Origin: an uncultured Holophagaceae bacterium
Lineage (GTDB): Bacteria; Acidobacteriota; Holophagae; Holophagales; Holophagaceae
DNA: 38,208 bases
Assembly (NCBI GenBank): GCA_903843705.1
Contig: CAIMQW010000107.1
Location: forward strand, 1-38,208
Reading direction: 5' to 3'
Position 1 is the stretch's first letter. The number at the start of each line of letters is the position of its first letter. A program made the position numbers and the translations under genes. This document shows positions 8,179 through 19,159 of the stretch, one piece after another. The notes below the pieces were generated by a model. The model was not told the DNA's origin. It did not search any database and saw only the letters and a list, made by a program, of their open reading frames with translations.

Positions 8179-9555
8179 CTAATTTTTCATCGAACTCACC
8201 GTCTCGAAGTAGTGGGCGAAGGCGGCCATGCCGCCGCTGGCCTGCTCCCAGTCATAGTTCTCGTTGGGGGCGTGGTAGCCGTGGCTGGGGAGGCTGAGGC
8301 CCAGGAAGAAGACTTCGCAGCCTAGGAGGTCCTCCATGGTCTTCACGGCGCCGATGCTGCCGCCCTCGCGGGTGAAGGAGCAGGGGGCATCGAAGGCGAA
8401 GCGGTAGGCGTCCTTGATGGCCTCGGCGTAGGGGCCTGTGACGTGGCCGCTGAAGGGTGCCAGACCGTGCTCCTCGTGGAACTGGACGTCGGGGAAGTAC
8501 TTGGCCACAAAGGCGCGGATGCGCTGAATGGTCTTCTGCTCATCCATGGCCGGCACCAGGCGGCAGCTCAGCTTCACCTCGGCCCGGGGCGGCACTGCGC
8601 TCTTGATGCCAGGGCCCGTGTAGCCGCCCACGACGCCGTGGACTTCCATGGTGGGCCGGCCCCAGACGCGCTTCATGACCTTGAGGGGATCCTCGGTGCG
8701 CATGCCGGTGATCATGTGGTCCTTCTTGAAGGTCTCCACGCTGAAGCCCGCGTTGGCCCACTCTTCGAGCTCCTGCTTGCTGGGCTTGACCACCTCGTCA
8801 TAGAAGCCCGGGATCTTCACCTTGCCGGTCTCGCCGTCCATCATGGCGGCCACCACCTTGATGAGCTCTGCCAGGGGGTTGCGGGCCGCGCCGCCTACCA
8901 CGCCGCTGTGCAGGTCATGGTCCGCGGTTTCCAGGGTGAGGCGGAAGCCCTTGAGGCCCCGCAGGCCCGCAGGGGTGCTGGGCTTGCCCCGGGTGATCCA
9001 GACCGTGTCGCTCACCACGATGGCGTCGGTCTTCAGGCGCGCCTGGTGCAGGCCCAGGCCGCCCGCGAAGCTCGGGGAGCCGATCTCCTCCTCGGTCTCC
9101 CAGAGGAAGTGGATGTTCAGGGGCACGCCCGCCCGGCGGGCCGCCAGGGCGCCGAAGAAGGCGGTGATAGCCGGGCCCTTGTCGTCGGTGCTGCCGCGCC
9201 CGCGGTAGGTGTCGCCATCCACCACAAAGGTGAAGGGCTCCGCGGTCCACTCGGGCTCGTTGGCGGGCTGCACGTCCATGTGGTTGTAGACGGTGATGGT
9301 GGGCAGGCTGGGATCCTCCCCGAACCAGCCGTGGATGAAGGGGTTCCCGCTGGTTTCCAGCAGCTCGGCCTTGCCGCCGTGCCGCTCGAAGAGGGCTCGG
9401 GCCGCTTCGGCCACGCGCCGTACATCGCCCTGGTGGGCGGGATCGGCGCTGACGGAGGGAATCTCCACCAGGGTCTTCAGCTCGGCCTCGAAGGTCGATC
9501 TGTTTTCGACGGCGAACTGGGCCAGGGCTTCACGGGTCAGCAGGGACGGATTCAT
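8179..9555 (-). CDS. M20-family metallopeptidase (dipeptidase/CNDP-like)
   Basis: A 458-aa cytoplasmic di-zinc hydrolase of the M20 family, closest in layout to carnosinase-type dipeptidases rather than to DapE/ArgE. Zinc and catalytic residues are visible: the His and Asp of YNHMDVQP, the bridging Asp of GRGSTDDKGP, the catalytic and ligand Glu of WETEEEIGS, the Asp of VVSDTVW, and the final His of LPSHGYHAPNE. The dimerisation lid (about 180-300) contains DLHSGVVGG, typical of this subgroup. ATG at 9555 is chosen because GGAG lies 6 bases upstream; the frame could extend 10 codons to 9585. It follows argC on the same strand after an 81-base AT-rich gap, so it may have its own promoter. Substrate is probably small peptides. 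Confidence 0.88.
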   Translation of the reverse strand: MNPSLLTREALAQFAVENRSTFEAELKTLVEIPSVSADPAHQGDVRRVAEAARALFERHGGKAELLETSGNPFIHGWFGEDPSLPTITVYNHMDVQPANEPEWTAEPFTFVVDGDTYRGRGSTDDKGPAITAFFGALAARRAGVPLNIHFLWETEEEIGSPSFAGGLGLHQARLKTDAIVVSDTVWITRGKPSTPAGLRGLKGFRLTLETADHDLHSGVVGGAARNPLAELIKVVAAMMDGETGKVKIPGFYDEVVKPSKQELEEWANAGFSVETFKKDHMITGMRTEDPLKVMKRVWGRPTMEVHGVVGGYTGPGIKSAVPPRAEVKLSCRLVPAMDEQKTIQRIRAFVAKYFPDVQFHEEHGLAPFSGHVTGPYAEAIKDAYRFAFDAPCSFTREGGSIGAVKTMEDLLGCEVFFLGLSLPSHGYHAPNENYDWEQASGGMAAFAHYFETVSSMKN

Positions 9556-9636
9556 GGGGTCTCCAGGTTCGGGGGAGACCATCATGCCACATAAGGGAAA
9601 TGTTGCTTATAAAGGATCTAAAGGTAACTGATGGCG

Positions 9637-10638
9637 CTAGGCCGGCCATCCCCCGGCGCTGCGTAGGCCAGTGCATTCCGGCAGGCCTAGAGACAGGTTG
9701 AGGTTCTGCACGGCCTGGGTGGCCATGCCCTTGCCCAGGTTGTCCAGGGCCACCAGCACCACCCCGTGGCCGCCTTTGGCCGCCACGGCCAAGTCCGCAA
9801 AAGCGCTGCCCACCGTGGCTGCCACCCGAGGCGTGACGTCCACAATGCGCACAAAGAACCGCCCCTCATAGAACTTTTCGAAGTGGGCCCGCAAGGCCCC
9901 AACTTCAATTCCCGCAGGCAGTGGGAATTGAATCGTGGCAAAAATCCCCCGCACCATGGGCGCGCTCTGAGGCACGAAGCTGAGGGGCGCCTGCCAGCCG
10001 GCGGTGGCCAGGGTGCGCAGCACCTCAGCCTCATGCTGGTGGCCCAGGACCTTGTAGGCGCGGAAGTCATGGGCGCGGCTGGGGTGGTGGGTGGTGTCTG
10101 AGGGCGCGGCGCCGGAGCCGCTGGAGCCCGTGGCGGCGGTGACCGCCACGAAGGCGGGCTGCCACTCGGCCAGGGGCAGCAGGGCCAACTGCAGGGCCGT
10201 GGCGAAGCAGCCGGGGTTGGCGATGCGCTTGGCACCGGCGATGCGCTCGGGCTGCCAGTCCACCAGGCCGTAGACCCAGGCGGGATCCAGGCGGAAGTCC
10301 GCCGAGAGGTCGATGACGATGAGGCGCTCCAGCAGGCCCGGGTGGGTCTGGGCGGCGGCTTCGAGCTCGGGCCAGAGCTTGCCCAGCTCCCCGTGGGGCA
10401 GGGCCGAGAAGATGACCGGAGCGGGGCTGGCCGCGAGGGCCTCCCAGTCCGGTGTGCCTTCGAAGACTCCCTCCACCAGTCCCCGCAGGTTCGGGTGCTG
10501 GGCATGGAAGGGCTTGCCCGCATGGCTGCGGGCCGTGCCGCGCAGAGAAGCCACCGCCGGGTGGTTGGAGAGCCAGCGCAGCAGCTCGCCACCGCCGTAG
10601 CCCGAAGCACCGAGGATCAGGACATCGACTTGGGTCAT
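9637..10638 (-). CDS. argC: N-acyl-gamma-glutamyl-phosphate reductase
   Basis: NADPH-dependent reduction of N-acylglutamyl-phosphate to the semialdehyde, third step of arginine synthesis. The 333-aa protein has the nucleotide-binding LILGASGYGGGELLRWL, the catalytic Cys144 in IANPGCFATA, and the active-site His in VLGHQHEAEV. The stretch GSSGSGAAPSDTTHHPSRAH before that His resembles Bacteroidetes ArgC and LysY-type reductases more than the E. coli type. The start ATG shares one base with the stop of the upstream P-loop gene (TGATG), a sign of translational coupling. It is the last gene of the arginine operon. Whether the acyl group is acetyl or succinyl cannot be told from this protein alone; the transcarbamylase suggests succinyl. 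Confidence 0.93.
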   Translation of the reverse strand: MTQVDVLILGASGYGGGELLRWLSNHPAVASLRGTARSHAGKPFHAQHPNLRGLVEGVFEGTPDWEALAASPAPVIFSALPHGELGKLWPELEAAAQTHPGLLERLIVIDLSADFRLDPAWVYGLVDWQPERIAGAKRIANPGCFATALQLALLPLAEWQPAFVAVTAATGSSGSGAAPSDTTHHPSRAHDFRAYKVLGHQHEAEVLRTLATAGWQAPLSFVPQSAPMVRGIFATIQFPLPAGIEVGALRAHFEKFYEGRFFVRIVDVTPRVAATVGSAFADLAVAAKGGHGVVLVALDNLGKGMATQAVQNLNLSLGLPECTGLRSAGGWPA

Positions 10639-11699
10639 CAGGAACCACCCTTAGAGGAAGACAGCTTGGCTTCGACTAGGCCGAGGACGAAGTTGCCGAG
10701 GGCGTCGGCGTCGGCGCGGGCGTTGCGGGCGGGGAGGCCCAGGGTAGCCACGAAGCGCTCGCCCACCCGGTTGTCGGTGGCGGGCCCGGCCACCAGGTCG
10801 GCCCGGATGCCGAAGGCGGACTGCAGCTGGTGAACACCACCGGCGACGCCTACGGGATCGTTGGCACAGAGGACGAAGGCGCCGCCTAGGGCCCGCAGGC
10901 CCGCATCCTCCAGGATGGCCTGGACGCCGTACTCGCCCATGATGCCGTCACCGGTCTCGGCCACGATGACGTCCACGCCGTGGGCCGCCAGCTCGGAGAA
11001 GATGATGCGCGCAACCCCGGCAGCGGAGCCGGCATCGGTGCAGACCACGCCCGCATCGGTGAAGTCCAGGGCCACCTCGGCGCCGTAGTCGCGCATGGCC
11101 AGGGCATCGCGCATGAGGGACACCCCCGTAAGCTTGCAGGCCCCCACACGGTAGCCCGCGCGGCTCAGCTGCCGGATGGCAGCGCAGGCGGCGGCGGTCT
11201 TGCCGGCGTTCATGCAGGTGCCCGCCACATATACCACGGGACAGCGGGGCGAGAGGCTGGTGCCCTGGAGGGCGCCCATGCGGATGTGGGCCGCCTGGCC
11301 CGCGCGGCTCTGGAACTCGGGGAAGACCTGCACCTGGCCCAGCACTTCCATGTCGAAGGGCTTGCCCAGGTCCCGGTTATAGGAGAGGCAGGTGCCGATG
11401 ACCCCGCCCATGTTTAGCAGGTTCACGGTGTCGCCGGTCTTGAGGGCCGTGGGTAGGATGCCCTCGTAGCCCTGGAGGGCGTTGCGGTGGCCCAGGGCCC
11501 CCACCAGGATGTCCCCGTCGTGCAGCGTGCTCATGCGGCCGTGGGGATCCTCCAGCTGGTTGTAGGTGGTCTTCTCGCCCCGCACCCGGCAGGCGATGAC
11601 CGAGCCTTCTTCCAACAGAATCTCTGGCGCCAGGGTAAGCGTCCGCCCCAGCCGCAGGTTGCGGGTGACCGAAGCGAGCTTGTCAACGTGAATGCGCAT
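10638..11699 (-). CDS. P-loop protein of unknown function inside the arginine operon (candidate N-acylglutamate synthase/ligase)
   Basis: A 353-aa protein. Residues 1-150 form a strand-rich N-terminal part (GDILVGALGHRNALQGYEG, NLLNMGGVIGTCLSYN). Residues 155-330 are a P-loop domain: Walker A GTCMNAGKT at 160-168, a following CKLTGVSLMRDAL, a DFTDAGVVCTDAG segment, and IVAETGDGIMGEYG at 245-258, reminiscent of BioD, MobB and DUF1611 proteins. There is no signal peptide or membrane segment. It sits between argG and argC and is coupled to argC by a one-base overlap, in an operon that has every arginine step except N-acylation of glutamate. DUF1611 members such as DgcN are, from memory, glutamate N-acetyltransferases. 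A role in making N-acylglutamate is therefore inferred; a regulator or an assembly NTPase is the alternative. GAGG lies 6-9 bases before the ATG. Confidence 0.75.
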   Translation of the reverse strand: MRIHVDKLASVTRNLRLGRTLTLAPEILLEEGSVIACRVRGEKTTYNQLEDPHGRMSTLHDGDILVGALGHRNALQGYEGILPTALKTGDTVNLLNMGGVIGTCLSYNRDLGKPFDMEVLGQVQVFPEFQSRAGQAAHIRMGALQGTSLSPRCPVVYVAGTCMNAGKTAAACAAIRQLSRAGYRVGACKLTGVSLMRDALAMRDYGAEVALDFTDAGVVCTDAGSAAGVARIIFSELAAHGVDVIVAETGDGIMGEYGVQAILEDAGLRALGGAFVLCANDPVGVAGGVHQLQSAFGIRADLVAGPATDNRVGERFVATLGLPARNARADADALGNFVLGLVEAKLSSSKGGS

Positions 11700-11719: not shown

Positions 11720-11782
11720 CACCACGAAGACACGAAGAACTGCCAAGAAGTGCTTTTTTCGTGTCTTCGTGTCTTCGTGGTG
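11720..11782. repeat. Intergenic hairpin repeat, GAAGACACGAAG type
   Basis: Perfect 18-base inverted repeat: CACCACGAAGACACGAAG at 11720-11737 and its complement at 11765-11782, with a 27-base loop that includes a T-run. The arms are themselves made of short tandem units (ACGAAG/CACGAAG). It fills the gap between argG (stop at 11785) and the P-loop gene (start 11699) inside the operon. Similar CACGAAG hairpins recur in intergenic DNA of many unrelated bacteria; their role is unknown. On the minus-strand mRNA it could act as a processing or attenuation hairpin. Confidence 0.8.
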
Positions 11783-11784
11783 GA

Positions 11785-12972
11785 TCAGTTGTTCTTTGCC
11801 TTGAGCGTGAGGGTCTGCTGGACGCCGAAGATCTTGGCGAAGCCGGCGGCTTCGGTGCCGGTCCACAGGCGGTTGGTTTCGCCGTAGGTGGCGATGCGGG
11901 GATCCATGAGGGAGTAGGGCGACTGGACGCCCTCTACCACGAAGGCCCGGGGGTGCAGGGTGACGCGCACCTCGCCGGTGACGCGGTCCTGGCTGGAGTC
12001 CAGGAAGGCTTCGAGGTCGCGGGCCAGGGGATCGAAGAAGTGGCCCTCGTGCAGGAGGCCGCCGTAGAGGTTGCCCAGGGACTCTTTCCAGAAGAGCTGC
12101 TTGCCGGACAGGACCAGCTTCTCCAGCTCCCGGTGGGCGCCTATCAGCAGGTGCGCGGCGGGGGCCTCGTAGCCCACGCGGCCCTTGATGCCCAGGATGG
12201 TATCGCCGAGGTGCACGCCCCGGCCGATGCCGTAGGGGCGACCCAGATCGTTGAGGCGGGCGATGAGGGTGACGGGGTCCAGGCCTTCGCCGTCCAGGGC
12301 CACCGGGACACCCTGATCGAAGCTTATGACCAGGGTCGAAGGCGCTGGGGTCCCGATGACGCCGCCCGGGAAGGCCGCTTCGGGCAGGCTGCTCCAGGGG
12401 TCCAGGGTCTCCCGGCCACCCACGCTGGTGCCCCACATGCCTTCGTTGATGGAGTAGTCCTTGGTCTTCTCGGGGAACACCAGACCACGCTGGGCGCAGT
12501 AGTCCATCTCCTCGGCCCGGGACAGGCCCAGGTCGCGGATGGGGGTCAGGATTTCCAGGTCCGGGGCGAGGGCGCGGAAGGCCACATCGAAGCGCACCTG
12601 GTCGTTGCCGGCGCCCGTGGAGCCGTGGGCAATGGCGGTGGCGCCCATGCTCTTGGCCAATTCGGCAACCGCCCGGGCCTGGCAGACGCGCTCAGCGGAG
12701 ACGGACAGGGGATACATCTGGCCGCGTAGAACATTGCCGTAGACTAGGTAGCGCAGGTAGCCGTCGAAGAGGCCGGCCCGGGCATCCACGGTGGTGTGGC
12801 TGAGGGCGCCGAGCTTCGGCGAGGCCGCCTCGATGCGGGCCAGCTCCTCCGGCGAGAACCCACCGGTGTTGACTGTGACCGTGGCCACCTCGTAGCCCTG
12901 CTCCTTAAGGTAGAAGACGCAGAAGGACGTATCGAGACCGCCCGAAAAGGCGAGGACAGCGAGCTTGCTCAT
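11785..12972 (-). CDS. argG: Argininosuccinate synthase
   Basis: Joins citrulline and aspartate with ATP to argininosuccinate. The 395-aa protein has the N-type PP-loop AFSGGLDTS at residues 8-16, the GNVLRGQMYPLSVSAER segment, and the AHGSTGAGNDQVRFD motif that binds aspartate and ATP. Wording such as VNTGGFSPEELARIE and the WGTSVGGRE segment match the Bacteroidetes branch of ArgG rather than the proteobacterial one, in line with the rest of the operon. Length is normal. It is bounded on both sides by hairpin repeats (11720-11782 and 13019-13080), which could set its expression relative to argH and the downstream pair. Confidence 0.95.
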   Translation of the reverse strand: MSKLAVLAFSGGLDTSFCVFYLKEQGYEVATVTVNTGGFSPEELARIEAASPKLGALSHTTVDARAGLFDGYLRYLVYGNVLRGQMYPLSVSAERVCQARAVAELAKSMGATAIAHGSTGAGNDQVRFDVAFRALAPDLEILTPIRDLGLSRAEEMDYCAQRGLVFPEKTKDYSINEGMWGTSVGGRETLDPWSSLPEAAFPGGVIGTPAPSTLVISFDQGVPVALDGEGLDPVTLIARLNDLGRPYGIGRGVHLGDTILGIKGRVGYEAPAAHLLIGAHRELEKLVLSGKQLFWKESLGNLYGGLLHEGHFFDPLARDLEAFLDSSQDRVTGEVRVTLHPRAFVVEGVQSPYSLMDPRIATYGETNRLWTGTEAAGFAKIFGVQQTLTLKAKNN

Positions 12973-13018
12973 AGGGGACCTTTCATTTTGGGCATAGGGC
13001 AGAAGAAAAACGCCAACA

Positions 13019-13080
13019 GCAGAGAACGCAGAGAGCGAAGAGCGAAGCAGAACTCCCTCTGCGTTCTCCGAGTTCTCTGC
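13019..13080. repeat. Intergenic hairpin repeat, GAGAACGCAGAG type
   Basis: Inverted repeat GAGAACGCAGAG (13022-13033) and CTCTGCGTTCTC (13057-13068), extended by an alternative outer pair GCAGAGAA (13019-13026) with TTCTCTGC (13073-13080), so two competing stems are possible. The arms consist of short tandem variants of GCAGAGAAC. It lies in the 133-base gap between argH and argG. It has the same design as, but a different sequence from, the hairpin at 11720-11782. Confidence 0.75.
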
Positions 13081-13105
13081 GGTGAACCAACAGCAGAAGC
13101 CAGCA

Positions 13106-14461
13106 CTACTCCGCCCACAGGGTCTCCTCGGCCTGGGCGTGGGTGTCAGCCTTGGCCTGGATCCAGGCGCGGGCTGCGGCGAGCTCGGTGGCGAGGTCGT
13201 CCAGGGCTAGGTTGCCGGCGCCGCCCAGGTGGGTGGCGGTGAGGGCGCTGCGGTCCGGGGCGAAGGTGCCGTCCTGGAGCTGCTGGGCCACCTGGCGGTA
13301 GGCGTCGCGGAAGGGCAGGCCCCCCTGCACCAGGACATAGGCCTGGTGGGCGGCGTAGAGCTCATCCGAGGAGGCCGCAGCGGTGGCGTCGGCCTGCACT
13401 TGGAGCGCCGGCAGGAGGGGCTTGAGCACGGCGAAGAGGTCGTCGGCGCTGCGCAGGGCGATGACCAGGGGCCGCTTCAGCAGCTGCAGGTCCCGGTGGT
13501 AGCTGGAGGGCAGGCCGGCGGCGAGCTGCTCGAGCAGGCCCGCGGCGCCCCGCAGCTCGCGGCAGCGGCCCCGGGCCAGCTCCACCACGTCCGGGTTCTT
13601 CTTCTGGGGCATGATGCTCGAGCCCGTGGTGTAGGCGTCGGGCAGTTTGAGGAAGCCGAACTCTTCGGTGCTGTAGAGCGACACGTCCCACAGGAACTTC
13701 TCCAGGACGCCACCGACCGAGGCGGCCCACTCGAGCAGGGCGACCTCGTGGCGGCCCCGGCTGTTCTGCACGTCGATGGGGCTGCGCTGGACCTTCGAAA
13801 AGCCCAACAGCCGCGCCGTGAGGGCCCGATCGATGGGCAGAGGCACGCCGAAGCCCGCCGCCGAGCCCAGGGGGCAGCGGTCCAGGCGGCCATAGACACC
13901 CTGCAGGGCTTCCAGTTCTTCCAGCAGGCCCTCGGCGAAGGCCGTGGCCCAGAGGCCGAAGCTGCTCGGCATGGCGCGCCGCAGGTGCGTGTAGCCCGGC
14001 AGGGGCGTATCGCGGTGCACTTTGGCGAAGGCCAGGAAGGCCTCGGCCAGATCCGCGACCCGCAGGCCCAGGCGCACCAGGGCGTCCCGCTGGTAGAGGC
14101 GCAGGGCGAGGATGATCTGGTCGTTGCGCGAGCGGCCCAGGTGGATGCGGGCCCCGGCTGCGCCGAAGCGCTGGGTGAGGTTCGCCTCGATGGCGGTGTG
14201 GCAGTCCTCCATGGCCGCGGGGATGGGGAAGGCCCCCTGGCGGGCGGCCTGGGCAATGTCTCGCAGGCCGCCCACGAGGGTCTCGGCGTCCGCCGCCGGG
14301 ATCAGGCCCGTGGCGGCCAGCATCCGGGCGTGGGCCGCGCTGCCCAGGGCGTCCCACGCCACCAGGGCCAGGTCCGTGTCAGGATCCTCGCCCACGGTGA
14401 ACCGGTGGATTGCCTCATCCAGGGGCACATCCTTGGCCCAGAGCCGACCGGGTTCACGCAT
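13106..14461 (-). CDS. argH: Argininosuccinate lyase
   Basis: Splits argininosuccinate into arginine and fumarate, the last step of the pathway. The 451-aa protein carries the family signature GSSIMPQKKNPD with the catalytic Ser, the HLGRSRNDQI substrate-binding motif, DCHTAIEANL, and the TPLPGYTHLRRAMP segment. No acetyltransferase domain is fused at the C-terminus, unlike the ArgH(A) fusion proteins of some marine bacteria, so it does not supply the first pathway step. The ATG at 14461 overlaps the end of argE' by 8 bases; an open frame extends to 14857 but that portion is a shadow of argE'. It is followed after 133 bases by argG. Confidence 0.95.
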   Translation of the reverse strand: MREPGRLWAKDVPLDEAIHRFTVGEDPDTDLALVAWDALGSAAHARMLAATGLIPAADAETLVGGLRDIAQAARQGAFPIPAAMEDCHTAIEANLTQRFGAAGARIHLGRSRNDQIILALRLYQRDALVRLGLRVADLAEAFLAFAKVHRDTPLPGYTHLRRAMPSSFGLWATAFAEGLLEELEALQGVYGRLDRCPLGSAAGFGVPLPIDRALTARLLGFSKVQRSPIDVQNSRGRHEVALLEWAASVGGVLEKFLWDVSLYSTEEFGFLKLPDAYTTGSSIMPQKKNPDVVELARGRCRELRGAAGLLEQLAAGLPSSYHRDLQLLKRPLVIALRSADDLFAVLKPLLPALQVQADATAAASSDELYAAHQAYVLVQGGLPFRDAYRQVAQQLQDGTFAPDRSALTATHLGGAGNLALDDLATELAAARAWIQAKADTHAQAEETLWAE

Positions 14462-15518
14462 GGGGCACCTGCAGGGGGAAGAAGAGCGTGGCCAGCTGCG
14501 CGTAGAAGGCTGCACCGGCCTCGATCTCAGCCAGGGTGATGTGCTCGTTGGGGCGGTGGCTGCGGAAGGTGTCGCCGGGGCCCACCTTGACCGTGGGGAT
14601 GTCGCCCAGGAAGGCCCAGTCCGAGGTAGTGCCGGAGCCCACGGGACCGGCCTTGCCTGCAGCCTGGAGCGCGGCGCGGACGATGGCTTCCCGGGGATCC
14701 GTGGACTTGGGCAGGTAGCGCTTGGAGTGGATGGCGACCTGGCTCTCCAGGCGCCCCTGGAAGTCCGCCGCCAGGTCATCGTGGTCCTGGTCCGGACCCG
14801 TGCGCAGGTCGATGAAGAACTCGCAGGCGTCGGGCACCTGGTTCCGCCAGAGGCCACCCTGGATCTGGGTGACCTGGGCCTTCTGGGAGCCCAGCAGCTG
14901 GTGCGGCGGGAACTCCATGGCGGCCACGCGGGTGATGTCCCGGGCCGCCTTGTGGATAGCGTTCTCGGCGCCCAGCATCTGGGCGTTTGCCACGTGGCCG
15001 CTCTGGCCCCGGGCCGTGCACTTCAGTACCAGAAGGCCCCGCTGGGCGGCGCAGACACGCAGGCCCGTAGGCTCGCCCACCACGGCGCCATCGAAGGAAC
15101 CCAACTCGCCCAGGATGGTGGCGATGCCGTTGCCGCCGGTCTCTTCCTCGGCCGTGAGGGCCACGGTCACTTCGCCCTCCAGGGATTGCTCGGACAGCTC
15201 GAAGGCGGCGAGCAGAATGGCGGCAACCGAGGCCTTGGCGTCGTTGGCGCCGAGGCCATGGAGGCGGGTCCCGTTCCAGATCGGTGTGAAGGGATCACCC
15301 TCCCAGCCGGCGCAGGGCGGCACCGTGTCCAGGTGGGAGTTCATGAGCAGCCGCTTGCCGCCGGTGGCCCCGAAGCTGAACCACAGGTTGTGGTCCTGCC
15401 GGTGCACCTGGAAGCCGCGGGCGGTGAGCAGATCCTGGAGCAGGTCCGCGATGGCGCCTTCGCCACCGGACACGCTGGGCGTGCCGACCAGGAGGGTGAT
15501 CAGCTCGGCGGCGTTCAT
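14454..15518 (-). CDS. argE: M20-family N-acylornithine/N-acylcitrulline deacylase (ArgE-like)
   Basis: Removes the acyl group from the pathway intermediate; after an N-acylornithine transcarbamylase the substrate should be N-acylcitrulline. The 354-aa M20 metallohydrolase shows H62 and D64 (NSHLDTVPP), D93 (GLGANDAKAS), E124/E125 (TAEEETGG), E149 (GEPTGL) and the final zinc His in DTFRSHRPNEHI. The GSGTTSDWAFLGDIPTVKVGPGD region is close to Bacteroidetes ArgE, which act on N-succinyl or N-acetyl intermediates, and to LysK. It is shorter than E. coli ArgE, as in that group. The start overlaps the argB stop by 4 bases (ATGA) and the end overlaps argH, so the three are translationally coupled. 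Confidence 0.88.
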   Translation of the reverse strand: MNAAELITLLVGTPSVSGGEGAIADLLQDLLTARGFQVHRQDHNLWFSFGATGGKRLLMNSHLDTVPPCAGWEGDPFTPIWNGTRLHGLGANDAKASVAAILLAAFELSEQSLEGEVTVALTAEEETGGNGIATILGELGSFDGAVVGEPTGLRVCAAQRGLLVLKCTARGQSGHVANAQMLGAENAIHKAARDITRVAAMEFPPHQLLGSQKAQVTQIQGGLWRNQVPDACEFFIDLRTGPDQDHDDLAADFQGRLESQVAIHSKRYLPKSTDPREAIVRAALQAAGKAGPVGSGTTSDWAFLGDIPTVKVGPGDTFRSHRPNEHITLAEIEAGAAFYAQLATLFFPLQVPHA

Positions 15519-16432
15519 CCGGCCACCGCCGCGACCGGGGTGGGGATGATCATGGTGCCGCTGCCCTCATTGGTGAAGACCTCGGCCAGCAGGGCGTCCG
15601 GGGCCAGGCCGCTGACGAGGTGGGCGCTGGAGACGCCATTCTGGAGCGCGTTCCGCACGGCGGTGAGCTTGGGCCGCATGCCCCCGCTGATGGCGCCCTC
15701 CTGTTCCAGGACCGCCAGCTCGTCCAGCGTGGCGTGGGGGATCAGGGACGAGCTCTTGTTCACATCCTTCAGAAGGCCCGGCACCGAGAGCAGGAAGAAG
15801 ATCTTTTCCGCAGCCAGGGCCGAGGCCAGGCTGGCGGCGATGGTGTCGGCGTTGGTGTTGTAGATGGCGCCGTCGGTGCCGCCCGAGAGGGGCGCCACCA
15901 CTGGCACGAAGCCGCCTTCCAGCAGATGGGTGAGGACGCTGGGATCCACGGAATCGATGTCGCCCACTAGGCCGAAGTCCACGAGCACGGGCTCCGTGGC
16001 GCCGTCGGGCACCACGGATACCGGCGGTCGCCGGTGGGCTTTGACCAGGCCCGCATCCACCCCCGAGAGGCCCACGGCGGGCACCCCGTTGGCCAGGAGC
16101 TCCGCGAGGAGGTCCATGTGCACCTGGCCGGCGAAGACCATCTTGGCGGCGTTCAGAACTTCCGGCGTGGTCACCCGGCGTCCCGCCACCTTCTGGATGG
16201 GGATGGCCATGGCCCGGCACACGGCGTCGAGTTCGGGTCCGCCGCCGTGCACCAGCACCACACGGATGGAGAAGCTCCAGAGCAGGGCGATCTGTTCACA
16301 CAGGGCCTTGCGCATCTTGGGCTCGGCGATGACTTCGCCGCCGACCTTGATCAGGAAGGTCTTCCCGCGCCAGAGGCGGACAAACTGGGAGGCTTCCTTG
16401 AGGGCGGCGTAGGGATTCGGGGACAGCGGCAT
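15515..16432 (-). CDS. argB: N-acylglutamate kinase
   Basis: Phosphorylates the gamma-carboxylate of N-acylglutamate with ATP, second step of arginine synthesis. The 305-aa amino-acid-kinase fold has the ATP-binding Lys29 in LIKVGGEVI, the glycine-rich HGGGPELDA loop (62-70), GRRVTTPEVL where N-acetylglutamate kinases read GLRVT, and NTNADTIAASLASALAAEKI with the Asp/Lys catalytic surroundings. The N-terminal helix (PNPYAALKEASQFVRLWRGK) resembles the kinked helix of arginine-inhibited hexameric enzymes, so feedback inhibition is possible but not shown. No acetyltransferase domain is fused. 32 bases separate it from argF'; ATGA overlap with argE'. Confidence 0.92.
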   Translation of the reverse strand: MPLSPNPYAALKEASQFVRLWRGKTFLIKVGGEVIAEPKMRKALCEQIALLWSFSIRVVLVHGGGPELDAVCRAMAIPIQKVAGRRVTTPEVLNAAKMVFAGQVHMDLLAELLANGVPAVGLSGVDAGLVKAHRRPPVSVVPDGATEPVLVDFGLVGDIDSVDPSVLTHLLEGGFVPVVAPLSGGTDGAIYNTNADTIAASLASALAAEKIFFLLSVPGLLKDVNKSSSLIPHATLDELAVLEQEGAISGGMRPKLTAVRNALQNGVSSAHLVSGLAPDALLAEVFTNEGSGTMIIPTPVAAVAG

Positions 16433-16464: not shown

Positions 16465-17457
16465 TCAGGACTGGTTCAGCAGGCTGGCAATGGTGGCGCG
16501 CTGGACGTGGAAGCGGTTCTCGGCCTCATCGACGACGCGGCTCCAGGGTCCATCGAGGACGCTGTCGTGCACCTCGAGGTTGCGGCGCACCGGCAGGCAG
16601 TGGGTGAAGATGGCTTCCTTCGACGCCTTCTGCATGTGGGCGGCGGTGGGCATCCAGGCGGACAGGTCCGTCATGGGCGCGGCTTCCAGGCCGGAGCTGG
16701 TGGAGGGCCCCCAGGCCTTGGCGTAGACGGCGGCGCTGCCCTCCAGAGCGGCGTCCTGGTCGTGGGTGTAGGTGATCTTCCCGCCGGTGGCAGCGGCGTA
16801 GCGCTCGGCCTCGGCCCGGACTTCGGCGGACAGCTCATAGCCCTTGGGGTGGGCCACGCGGATCTCGGCACCGCAGGCCGCGGCGGTGAGTAGGAAGGAG
16901 TTGGGCACGGCCTTGGGCAGGGGCTTCATGTGGGGCGCCCAGGTGAGGGTCACGGGCACCTTGGTCGATCCGTGGGCCTCCTGGATGGTGAGCATGTCGG
17001 CCAGGCCCTGGTGGGGGTGCTCCCGGGCGCTCTCCATGCTCAGCACGGGCACGGTGGAGAAGCGCCGGAAGGCGCTGATGACGGGATCGATCTCATCGGT
17101 GGCGTCGCCCTCGCCCCCACTGAAGGTGCGCACCGCCAGCAGGTCGGCGTAGCGGCCCAGCACGGGCACGCCCTCGCGGACATGCTCGGCGCGGTCGGCG
17201 TTCATGATGGCGCCATCACGATCTTCCAGCTTCCAGGTGCCGGCGCCCACCTCAAGCACGATGGCGTGGCCGCCGTGGCGCAGCATGGCCGCCTCGAAGC
17301 TGGCGCGGGTGCGGAGGCTAGGGTTGAAGAAGATCATGCCGAGGATGCGGTTGGCGAAGATGGCGCCAGGGCGGTTCTTCTTCCACTCGGCGGCCACGGC
17401 CAGGATCTGCTTGACCCCCTCGGGGCCCAGGTCAGAGATGCGGGTGAAGTGCTTCAT
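16465..17457 (-). CDS. argF': N-acylornithine carbamoyltransferase, predicted N-succinylornithine type
   Basis: Transfers a carbamoyl group to an N-acylated ornithine. The 330-aa protein has the carbamoyl-phosphate motif FFNPSLRTRASFE (43-55), the HPHQGLAD stretch, the KPLPKAVPNSF loop typical of acylornithine enzymes, HCLPVRRN with the catalytic Cys, and the VDEAENRFHVQ ending. It matches N-acetylornithine transcarbamylase of Xanthomonas and N-succinylornithine transcarbamylase of Bacteroides, not ordinary ArgF. At the specificity position (Glu92 in Xanthomonas, Pro90 in Bacteroides) it has Ala90 (in MNADRAEHVREG). Published mutants with Ala, Ser, Val or Pro there use N-succinylornithine, so this enzyme is predicted to do so. 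ATGA overlap with argD. Confidence 0.9.
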   Translation of the reverse strand: MKHFTRISDLGPEGVKQILAVAAEWKKNRPGAIFANRILGMIFFNPSLRTRASFEAAMLRHGGHAIVLEVGAGTWKLEDRDGAIMNADRAEHVREGVPVLGRYADLLAVRTFSGGEGDATDEIDPVISAFRRFSTVPVLSMESAREHPHQGLADMLTIQEAHGSTKVPVTLTWAPHMKPLPKAVPNSFLLTAAACGAEIRVAHPKGYELSAEVRAEAERYAAATGGKITYTHDQDAALEGSAAVYAKAWGPSTSSGLEAAPMTDLSAWMPTAAHMQKASKEAIFTHCLPVRRNLEVHDSVLDGPWSRVVDEAENRFHVQRATIASLLNQS

Positions 17458-18602
17458 GGCTGCTCCGGGGCGAAAGAATGGATGGCGGCAATGAGGGCGC
17501 TGAGGGCCTCGTCGCTGAGGTTGAGGGGTGGCATCAGGCGCAACACCGTGGGGTCGCTGGACCCTCCCACCAGTATGTGCTGGGCCAACAGGTGCTTCTT
17601 GAGGGCGGCGGCGTGGGCGCTGCGGAGACCCAGCAGCAGGCCTTCGCCGAGGACCTCGCTGACCACCGAGCCCGCCAGTTCCTGGCGGAGGCGGGCCGCG
17701 GCGGCGGCGGCGTTGGTCATCATGCCCTCGCCGGTGATAGCTGCCACGGTGGCGATGAGGGCCGCGCAGGCCAGGGGGCCGCCCCCGAAGGTGCTGCCCA
17801 GGTCGCCGCCCTTGAGCTTGGCAGCCACAGCGGTGGTCATTAGCAGCGCCCCCATGGGCACGCCGGAGGCCAGGCCCTTGGCGCTGGTCATGAAGTCGGG
17901 CCGCACGCCGTAGAACTGGGCGGCGAAGGGGACGCCGAGGCGGCCCATGCCGGTCTGGATCTCGTCGAAGATGAGCAGAGTGCCGCTGGCGTCGCACTTG
18001 GCACGCAGGGCCTGGAACCACTCTCGGGAGGCGGTCTTGATGCCGGCCATGCTCTGGATGGGCTCGACGATGACGCCGGCCACATCGGAGAAGTCGGCAG
18101 CGGCCAGGGCGGTGAGGTCGCCGAAGGGGATGCGCAGGGTCGGCACCAGCTGGTCCGCATAGGGCTGGGTGATCTTGGGGTCGTCCGTGACGGAGAGGGC
18201 CAAGAGGGTGCGGCCGTGCCAGCCGCCGTCGAAGGCGCCTAGGTGCTTGCGGCCCGTGAGCAGGAGGGCCAGCTTCAGGGCGTTCTCATTGGCCTCGGCG
18301 CCGCTGTTGCAGAAGAACACTGAGTCCATGCCGGAGAAGGCGGTAATGCGCTCGGCGGCCTCGTCGCGCACGGGCAGGGCGGCGGCGGCCGAGTAGAAGA
18401 GCAGGCTGGCCGCCTGGTCTGCCACGGCCTTCACCACCGCCGGGTGGCTGTGGCCCGTGGCGCAGACGCAGTGCCCGCCGTAGAAGTCCCACCAGGCGCC
18501 GCCGGCGTCATCGAAGACCCGGTCGGCCTCGCCCTTCACCAGGGGAAAGGGATAGGGGGCGTAGGTGGGGAGCAGGGCGGGGATAGGGGCGGTGGCGGCC
18601 AT
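17454..18602 (-). CDS. argD: N-acylornithine aminotransferase
   Basis: Class-III PLP aminotransferase converting N-acylglutamate semialdehyde to N-acylornithine with glutamate. In the 382-aa protein the phosphate-binding NSGAEANE (99-106), the Asp213 of LIFDEIQTGMGR and the PLP Lys242 in SAKGLASG are visible. The N-terminal DFYGGHCVCATGHSHP matches Bacteroidetes ArgD (DLYGGHAV...GHxHP) better than E. coli ArgD. Start at 18602 is preferred (AGGA 9-12 bases upstream, MAATAPIPALLPTY); 11 more codons are open to 18635 but would enter the AT-rich control region. It is the first gene of the operon, divergent from argR, behind several palindromes. Confidence 0.92.
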   Translation of the reverse strand: MAATAPIPALLPTYAPYPFPLVKGEADRVFDDAGGAWWDFYGGHCVCATGHSHPAVVKAVADQAASLLFYSAAAALPVRDEAAERITAFSGMDSVFFCNSGAEANENALKLALLLTGRKHLGAFDGGWHGRTLLALSVTDDPKITQPYADQLVPTLRIPFGDLTALAAADFSDVAGVIVEPIQSMAGIKTASREWFQALRAKCDASGTLLIFDEIQTGMGRLGVPFAAQFYGVRPDFMTSAKGLASGVPMGALLMTTAVAAKLKGGDLGSTFGGGPLACAALIATVAAITGEGMMTNAAAAAARLRQELAGSVVSEVLGEGLLLGLRSAHAAALKKHLLAQHILVGGSSDPTVLRLMPPLNLSDEALSALIAAIHSFAPEQP

Positions 18603-18644
18603 GCGGACATCCTGTGCAGAGGCGTGCATTATCATGTGGCAGAA

Positions 18645-18657
18645 CGCATATTATGCG
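18645..18657. promoter_or_regulatory. Candidate ARG box 1 (argD side)
   Basis: Perfect palindrome CGCATA-T-TATGCG, with a further half-site-like TGCATTAT at 18625-18632. On the minus strand the left part reads CATAAT, a good -10 hexamer for argD, preceded 16 bases upstream by TTGTAT as a weak -35. ArgR operators are AT-rich 18-base palindromes with TGNAT half-sites, so a repressor bound here would cover the argD promoter. Assignment as an ARG box is inference. Confidence 0.5.
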
Positions 18658-18723
18658 CTTTCTGTTTCAGGATACAAGCAAGATTTTCTGTGACATAGAT
18701 GCTAATTCGATGTTTCTTGTTGT

Positions 18724-18751
18724 TGAATTATGCAAATTTATGCATAATTCA
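18724..18751. promoter_or_regulatory. Candidate ARG box 2: 11-base perfect inverted repeat at argR start
   Basis: TGAATTATGCA (18724-18734) and TGCATAATTCA (18741-18751), perfectly complementary around a 6-base AATTTA spacer. The arms carry TGAAT and TGCAT half-sites like those of known ARG boxes (TGAAT...ATTCA). It lies in the only AT-rich tract of the region, just upstream of the argR start, where it could serve autoregulation and repression of the divergent arginine operon. Confidence 0.65.
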
Positions 18752-18759
18752 TGCATGAA
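18748..18759. promoter_or_regulatory. Palindrome overlapping the argR start codon
   Basis: TTCATGCATGAA is a perfect 12-base palindrome that contains the argR ATG (18755) and overlaps the right arm of the 18724-18751 repeat. It could be an additional ArgR half-site pair or simply a by-product of overlapping TGCAT motifs. Confidence 0.4.
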
Positions 18760-19159
18760 CCCGGACGCCCTCATCCTCCAGCTGCTGGCTGGCTCCCCCA
18801 TCTCGGACCAGGGGGATCTGCTGGCGCGCCTGGCCGCCCTCGGCTGCGAACTCACCCAGTCCACCCTGTCCCGGCGCCTGAAGCGGCTGGGGGTGCAGAA
18901 GGTCCAGGGGCGGTACCGCCGGGAGGAGGGCAACCCCAAGGCCCTGCCCGAGGTCACCCTCCGCGAGGCCCCGCCCAACCTGCTGGTCCTGCGCACCTCG
19001 CCGGGCTTTGCCCAGGCTCTGGGGTTCAGCCTGGATGCGGATCCGGTGGAGGGCCAGATGGGCACCCTGGCTGGCGATGACACGGTGTTCGTGGCGGTGC
19101 TGCCCGAGCGCCTGGCCGAGGTGAAGGCCATCCTGGCCCGGCGGTTGGCGGCGCACTGA
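18755..19159 (+). CDS. argR: Arginine repressor
   Basis: Arginine-responsive DNA-binding regulator of arginine genes. The 134-aa protein has the N-terminal winged helix (LLAGSPISDQGDLLARLAALGCELTQSTLSRRLKRLGVQKV, fitting the ArgR pattern of Ser/Arg in the recognition helix) and the C-terminal hexamerisation/arginine-binding domain with LVLRTSPGFAQALG and GTLAGDDTVFVAV, including the Asp-Asp pair that binds arginine. It is shorter than E. coli ArgR, mainly at the N-terminus and linker. Start at 18755 (MNPDALILQ) or the in-frame ATG at 18740; neither has a clear ribosome site and both lie within palindromic DNA, which suggests autoregulation. Divergent from argD, the operon it most likely controls. 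Confidence 0.92.
   Translation: MNPDALILQLLAGSPISDQGDLLARLAALGCELTQSTLSRRLKRLGVQKVQGRYRREEGNPKALPEVTLREAPPNLLVLRTSPGFAQALGFSLDADPVEGQMGTLAGDDTVFVAVLPERLAEVKAILARRLAAH

Follow-up and report, generated by a model that had tools for sequence, protein, structure and literature searches.

Introduction

Which enzyme begins arginine biosynthesis in a bacterium whose arginine operon encodes every step other than the first? The question is raised by an uncultured, Geothrix-like acidobacterium of the Holophagaceae, in a stretch of DNA of 38,208 nucleotides that was analysed as a whole (the window), where recognised genes account for all of the remaining steps and the only unassigned gene encodes a P-loop protein of 353 amino acids. 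The original prediction held that this protein forms the missing N-acylglutamate; the comparative evidence presented here supports that claim as a hypothesis, with neither an assay nor a knock-out behind it, and sharpens it to N-succinylglutamate synthase. We consider it probable that the P-loop protein is the first enzyme of the linear arginine pathway, most probably as an N-succinylglutamate synthase, with the catalysis itself being inferred.

If this is true, the first-step gap in arginine synthesis would be filled for whole lineages, including that of the model bacterium Myxococcus xanthus, and the succinylated pathway, so far described for Bacteroidetes, would be far wider. DgcN would also cease to be the only case of glutamate N-acylation by a P-loop fold, and the annotation of the partner carbamoyltransferases would be corrected. 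The new observation here is that the carbamoyltransferases of P-loop operons carry the N-succinylornithine signature, while a genome with an ArgB-GNAT fusion carries the N-acetyl signature. We found no report of the P-loop gene in the literature on DUF1611 and arginine or on missing acetylglutamate synthases, a search whose coverage left out most subscription journals and all preprints.

The arginine operon and its unassigned gene

The P-loop gene lies on the minus strand, begins with an ATG, and encodes the motifs GTCMNAGKT and ETGDGIMG. It overlaps argC by 1 bp and is separated from argG by 85 bp, within an operon ordered argD, acylornithine carbamoyltransferase, argB, argE-type M20, argH, argG, P-loop gene, argC. 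The neighbouring genes were identified by Pfam and NCBIfam, and the features of the locus are as follows.

8179..9585, minus strand: M20 dipeptidase-like gene, 51 bp past argC, conserved mainly in Holophagaceae
9637..10638, minus strand: argC, N-acylglutamyl-phosphate reductase (TIGR01850, above cut-off), with the 1-bp overlap with the P-loop gene
10638..11699, minus strand: P-loop protein, putative N-acyl(succinyl)glutamate synthase; an all-beta N-terminal domain spans residues 1 to about 145 and the P-loop domain about 150 to 350, with GTCMNAGKT at 160-168
11785..12972, minus strand: argG, argininosuccinate synthase (Pfam/NCBIfam)
13106..14461, minus strand: argH, argininosuccinate lyase, 451 aa from the ATG at 14461, without a GNAT fusion
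14454..15518, minus strand: argE/dapE-type M20 deacylase (Pfam/NCBIfam)
15515..16432, minus strand: argB, N-acylglutamate kinase (TIGR00761), 305 aa, without a GNAT domain
16465..17457, minus strand: N-acylornithine carbamoyltransferase, with A/P/E at the Glu92/Asn185/Lys302 positions, the SOTCase signature
17454..18635, minus strand: argD, acylornithine aminotransferase (Pfam/NCBIfam)
18614..19159, plus strand: argR, arginine repressor, divergent; ORF as listed, with the true start inside it

The sequence confirms the earlier description of a 353-residue P-loop reading frame with both motifs and a one-base overlap with argC, and the Pfam and NCBIfam assignments agree with the further claim that the operon contains no ArgA, no ArgJ, and no GNAT domain either alone or fused; both ArgB and ArgH are unfused.

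Two of the intergenic regions of the operon contain hairpins. The first, at 11720-11782 between argG and the P-loop gene, has perfect arms of 19 nt (CACCACGAAGACACGAAGA) and contains all three copies in the window of the motif CACGAAGACACGAAG, for which 0.06 copies would be expected. The second, at 13016-13083 between argH and argG, has 30-nt arms that are 80% complementary. Both look like dispersed repeat elements.

Search for recognised first-step enzymes

A separate ArgA, ArgJ or GNAT synthase elsewhere in the genome would have spoken against the original prediction, and none was recognised in the bacterium's own genome or in its complete relatives (G032, G002, G133 and G143), with enzymes of the BT3761/Cabys_1732 type lying outside the search. 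In these five genomes the ArgA model TIGR01890 matched only the kinase domain of ArgB and never exceeded its cut-off. ArgJ was not found in the own genome, and none of its GNAT matches lay on the contig of the window. Each of these genomes does hold 11-20 GNATs, among them GNATs of unknown substrate, and when 24 GNATs from G032 and the own genome were scanned, no N-acetylglutamate synthase model was among the matches at 1e-6. The short-ArgA model NF005921 had no match above its cut-off in 39 genomes, and neither the own genome nor relatives of the same genus gave a match at 1e-5.

Across a wider set of 26 P-loop genomes spread over several phyla, neither ArgJ (0/26) nor ArgA above cut-off (0/26) was found. 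Three of the strongest weak GNAT matches in P-loop genomes were examined with NCBIfam. These weak ArgA-GNAT matches, from M. xanthus, Citreicoccus, and a gammaproteobacterial MAG, are ArsN2 arsenic-resistance acetyltransferases that score above the cut-off of the ArsN2 model. The linear arginine pathway of M. xanthus has been stated to depend wholly on N-acetylglutamate synthase (PMC1865377), and we found no recognised N-acetylglutamate synthase in its genome.

Conservation and gene order

Relatives of the P-loop protein were encoded in 115 stretches found by a search of the genome collection, 80 of which were fetched. Identity among the aligned loci is 55-95%, dozens of columns are invariant in an alignment of 33 sequences, and the gene is real and conserved. 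Its carriers include Holophagaceae, Myxococcaceae, Lysobacterales, other gammaproteobacterial MAGs, Verrucomicrobiota, Armatimonadota, and Planctomycetes; the laboratory strain Myxococcus xanthus DK1622 has the operon in full (L068). Conservation beside argC and argG in genomes without ArgA or ArgJ, a point raised with the original prediction, was found across phyla: argC directly follows the P-loop gene in 90/95 loci and argG precedes it in 86/95, with some of the loci that lack one of these neighbours being contig ends. The order argG, P-loop gene, argC is kept inside arginine operons across the collection. More diverged homologues from other families of Acidobacteriota (36-40% identity) also adjoin argC, and the Planctomycetes, with the order argG, P-loop gene, argC, argD, carbamoyltransferase, argB, keep the pair of P-loop gene and argC. 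None of the distant paralogues, at about 30% identity, was found inside an arginine operon.

In five gammaproteobacterial loci (L044, L053, L061, L065 and L075) no ArgE was recognised between argB and argH, and the deacylase there must be encoded elsewhere or be of another kind.

Co-occurrence with ArgJ, the carbamoyltransferase, and ArgB-GNAT

ArgJ is an alternative supply of N-acetylglutamate, through recycling of the acetyl group, and has an unrelated fold; it never co-occurs with an arginine-operon P-loop gene in 265 genomes. Among 119 genomes of Acidobacteriota, with an arginine-type P-loop match defined as E < 1e-60, the P-loop gene is present in 28 and ArgJ in 37 with an overlap of 0 (Fisher P 9e-6); counted by family (54 families), the numbers are 9 and 20, again with an overlap of 0 (P about 0.01). 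Among 146 genomes of Myxococcota they are 50 and 56, likewise without overlap (P 2e-14, uncorrected for kinship). Genomes of the same clade are not independent. Five genomes (G070, G103, G144, G207 and G287) appear in both the P-loop and ArgJ lists, with P-loop matches that are only weak paralogues or chance matches. The exclusion could also be partly secondary, because an acylornithine carbamoyltransferase is not usefully combined with ArgJ recycling.

An acylornithine-type carbamoyltransferase above cut-off is found in 26 genomes of Acidobacteriota, and 24/26 have the P-loop gene. One of the two exceptions (G128) is a contig end, and the other (G112) has an ArgB-GNAT fusion, its ArgB being 438 aa long with a NAT domain (PF04768, E 1e-37). 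ArgB fused to NAT is the bifunctional synthase-kinase of the Xanthomonas type (PMC1865377). The GNAT synthases (ArgA, Xanthomonas NAGS-K, and short ArgA) occupy the same pathway position, and catalyse the same reaction, as are proposed for the P-loop protein, with an unrelated fold; they are absent from P-loop genomes at curated cut-offs, whereas the carbamoyltransferase genome that does have ArgB-GNAT lacks the P-loop gene. In three further genomes (G075, G099 and G150) the P-loop gene is present and the carbamoyltransferase is of the ordinary type, below the acylornithine-type cut-off. In the two of these that were examined, G099 and G150, argC, argD, and argB accompany the P-loop gene while an ordinary OTC-like gene is found elsewhere, and therefore the P-loop gene tracks the acylated early steps and not the carbamoyltransferase. 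The 24/26 co-occurrence with the substitution in G112, together with these three genomes, argues for a direct link, as against a secondary exclusion.

The G112 operon (L208:2140-9681) is in itself an acidobacterial arginine operon that combines an ArgB-NAT fusion with a carbamoyltransferase having E/N/K at its three diagnostic sites, and that has no P-loop gene.

The acyl group

Shi and colleagues stated that Glu92, Asn185, and Lys302 of the Xanthomonas campestris AOTCase are replaced by A/S/P/V/Q, P, and V/I/E, respectively, in N-succinylornithine carbamoyltransferases (PMC4581275). The carbamoyltransferase of the window has A, P, and E at these sites and meets the SOTCase criterion. When the carbamoyltransferases of 78 P-loop operons were aligned, site 92 was A, P, Q or T and never Glu, site 185 was P in 78/78, and site 302 was E, V or I in 77 and K in one; the T at site 92, found in six operons, does not appear in the published SOTCase list. 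The enzymes of X. campestris and G112 both have E, N, and K. The carbamoyltransferase signature thus shifts with the kind of first enzyme, which favours succinylated intermediates and, as the product, N-succinylglutamate. Given that the product is an N-acylglutamate, we regard succinyl as the likely acyl group.

It remains possible, though in our view unlikely, that the protein carries out the same step with acetyl in place of succinyl, as an N-acetylglutamate synthase using acetyl-CoA, and that the carbamoyltransferase signature is misleading. N-acetylation is the only activity named in the nearest structural family (7xrj, DgcN), the window carbamoyltransferase also exceeds the cut-off of the N-acetylornithine model NF003384, and the six operons with Thr at site 92 fit less readily with succinyl. 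Set against this are the invariant Pro at the Asn185 site, the lack of any Glu at site 92, the 77 enzymes with E/V/I at site 302, and the E/N/K of the ArgB-GNAT genome. Database names, moreover, distinguish the succinylornithine and acetylornithine substrates poorly, and the Bacteroides carbamoyltransferase was itself long misannotated (PMC7311316).

A succinylated pathway in these operons would share with the Bacteroides-type pathway (SOTCase BT3717) the logic of a succinyl-type carbamoyltransferase and an M20 desuccinylase, but the first enzyme there is BT3761/Cabys_1732 and not a P-loop protein. BT3761 is the probable synthase of the succinylated pathway described for Bacteroidetes (PMC7311316), and its relative Cabys_1732 has been reported only from Bacteroidetes and Caldithrix (PMC5317091), a published distribution that does not fit that of the P-loop gene.

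Structure and family membership

An AlphaFold2 model of the P-loop protein (pLDDT 92.6, pTM 0.90) was most similar in VIA-align to the DUF1611 protein 2g0t (Z 17.1, 2.6 A over 171), with the other DUF1611 folds 2obn at Z 15.3 and 7xrj, titled N-acetyltransferase DgcN, at Z 14.8. The match is not exclusive to the DUF1611 fold, as CTP synthetase (Z 15.8) and BioD (Z 15.3) are near-equals and SIMIBI NTPases (SRP GTPases, HypB and MeaB) also score well in fold searches. With 2g0t, 2obn, and 7xrj the protein has in common the C-terminal P-loop fold, a GT..xxGKT loop, and an acidic motif at a strand end. DgcN is a D-glutamate N-acetyltransferase, and its chemistry, N-acylation of glutamate, is probably common to the P-loop protein; the connection between DUF1611 and this activity, on which the original prediction drew, holds at the level of the PDB title of 7xrj and of homology (an acidobacterial DUF1611 protein matches 7xrj at E 5e-26). 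Unlike the gene for DgcN, the P-loop gene stands in an arginine operon and not beside a DgcA epimerase gene.

The N-terminal domains differ more deeply. The DUF1611_N domain is Rossmann-like, whereas that of the P-loop protein, in a prediction of the domain alone (pLDDT 92), consists of about ten strands with a single short helix and is not alpha/beta; against the PDB, Foldseek returned nothing below E 0.7 for it and the best VIA Z was 3.0, leaving it without a match there. Being all-beta, it does not satisfy the criterion of a DUF1611_N-type domain. The window protein also falls short of PF07755, at 16.3 bits (E 0.0068) under the 25-bit Pfam cut-off, and this is the family matched by most members (33/33 at E up to 1, with 4.7e-5 as the best value). 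Searching Pfam, NCBIfam, and PDB sequences with the window protein alone gave no significant family, and it had no match to the GNAT domain or to ArgJ (PF01960). A 33-sequence profile found only the P-loop of BioD in the PDB (E 0.016), aligning 33 residues of the PDB BioD sequences, and AAA_26 (BioD) was matched by 17/33 members with a best E of 0.016, so that a full-length BioD/AAA_26 match is lacking. By hhalign, DUF1611 reached 33-44% with the arginine-type proteins alone and 88% over 235 columns once paralogues were added, and one BioD sequence by itself gave 89-91% across 36-51 columns, equalling DUF1611 over the P-loop. The profiles place the protein among P-loop families without choosing between DUF1611 and BioD. 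By its position it acts like an N-acylglutamate synthase, yet it belongs to none of GNAT, ArgJ, DUF1611 and BioD, and the most fitting description is of a new P-loop family with kinship to DUF1611/BioD.

The 33-sequence alignment has invariant residues in both domains. Those of the N-terminal domain include K43, Y46, E50, D51, R55, R72, Y78, and N96; those of the P-loop domain include G160-T-C-M, G166-K-T, K189, T191-G, D198, D204, F213-T-D215, A247-E248, G250-D-G252, Y257-G-V-Q260, C278-A-N-D-P-V-G284, and T308-D-N310.

Because BioD and CTP synthetase come close to DUF1611 in structural score, and BioD matches it in profile, homology alone does not predict an acyltransferase. That the protein is no acyl-CoA transferase but an ATP-dependent, BioD-like ligase, joining glutamate to free succinate, acetate or some other acid, is a minority reading that we doubt. 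The Mg-binding motif of BioD is EGAGG, and the P-loop protein has the acidic strand end AETGDG at that position, as well as an intact Walker A (GTCMNxGKT) similar to that of BioD. From BioD the protein differs in lacking a full-length match, in its gene context, and in its extra N-terminal domain. Against the ligase reading stands DgcN, whose P-loop domain is of a like kind and whose PDB entry (7xrj) names it an N-acetyltransferase; for the P-loop family itself the donor can be argued by analogy alone.

Least probable is an accessory or regulatory NTPase (an activator, a metal inserter or a sensor of the HypB/MeaB/SIMIBI type) with an unrecognised GNAT elsewhere as the synthase. The fold scores of SRP GTPases, HypB, and MeaB and the 11-20 GNATs per genome lend this some weight, but an accessory role gives no reason to expect ArgJ or ArgB-GNAT in its place. 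The operons examined showed no GNAT gene, and no GNAT had an N-acetylglutamate synthase model as its best fit, the strongest weak matches examined (M. xanthus and relatives) being ArsN2.

Proposed function

Returning to the proposed synthase, we are fairly confident that the P-loop protein makes an N-acylglutamate, an inference made without a biochemical or genetic test. It would N-acylate L-glutamate, the most probable donor being succinyl-CoA and the product N-succinylglutamate. This product would then pass through ArgB, ArgC, ArgD, and the succinyl-type ornithine carbamoyltransferase, after which the M20 deacylase would take off the acyl group. That the donor is an acyl-CoA, and not ATP plus a free acid, is inferred by analogy with DgcN. 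The P-loop may bind the phosphates of acyl-CoA or ATP, glutamate may be bound between the two domains, and the N-terminal domain would perhaps serve glutamate binding or feedback by arginine, all of which are inferences. What the analysis does show is the support for this scheme: operon position, conservation, the absence of recognised alternatives, the exclusion of ArgJ, the ArgB-GNAT substitution, the succinyl signature, and the DUF1611/DgcN-like P-loop fold. Somewhat more tentatively, and only a little better than evenly balanced in our estimation, the protein would represent a third class of first enzyme, unrelated in fold to the GNAT synthases and ArgJ. It would be an N-succinylglutamate synthase built on a P-loop and bearing a new N-terminal domain, and would account for succinylated arginine synthesis in Acidobacteriota, Myxococcota, Planctomycetota, Verrucomicrobiota, Armatimonadota, and some Gammaproteobacteria.

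Distant paralogues

Several distant paralogues stand in other settings. In two loci (L213:5929-8770 and L200:3818-5518) the paralogue adjoins an FMN reductase, and the L213 copy in addition overlaps an M20 deacylase and is close to a flavin reductase, so that the fold is again paired with an acyl-removing enzyme. On a Priestia megaterium plasmid (L216; NZ_CP085446.1, 85461-94149) a paralogue is clustered with genes for an ornithine carbamoyltransferase, two ATP-grasp proteins, several TPP enzymes, an M20 peptidase, an LLM oxidoreductase, and a protein of the PEP-mutase family, a set that looks like a cluster for a phosphonate amino-acid product with acyl protection. Paralogues of an acidobacterium (L187) and of Sulfitobacter and Paracoccus (L214 and L215) adjoin ABC transporter genes, the latter two being plasmid-borne and annotated as DUF1611 proteins. 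True DUF1611 (DgcN-like) genes of Acidobacteriota (L103 and L111) adjoin an enolase-superfamily gene which, from translations read by eye, resembles the DgcA epimerase.
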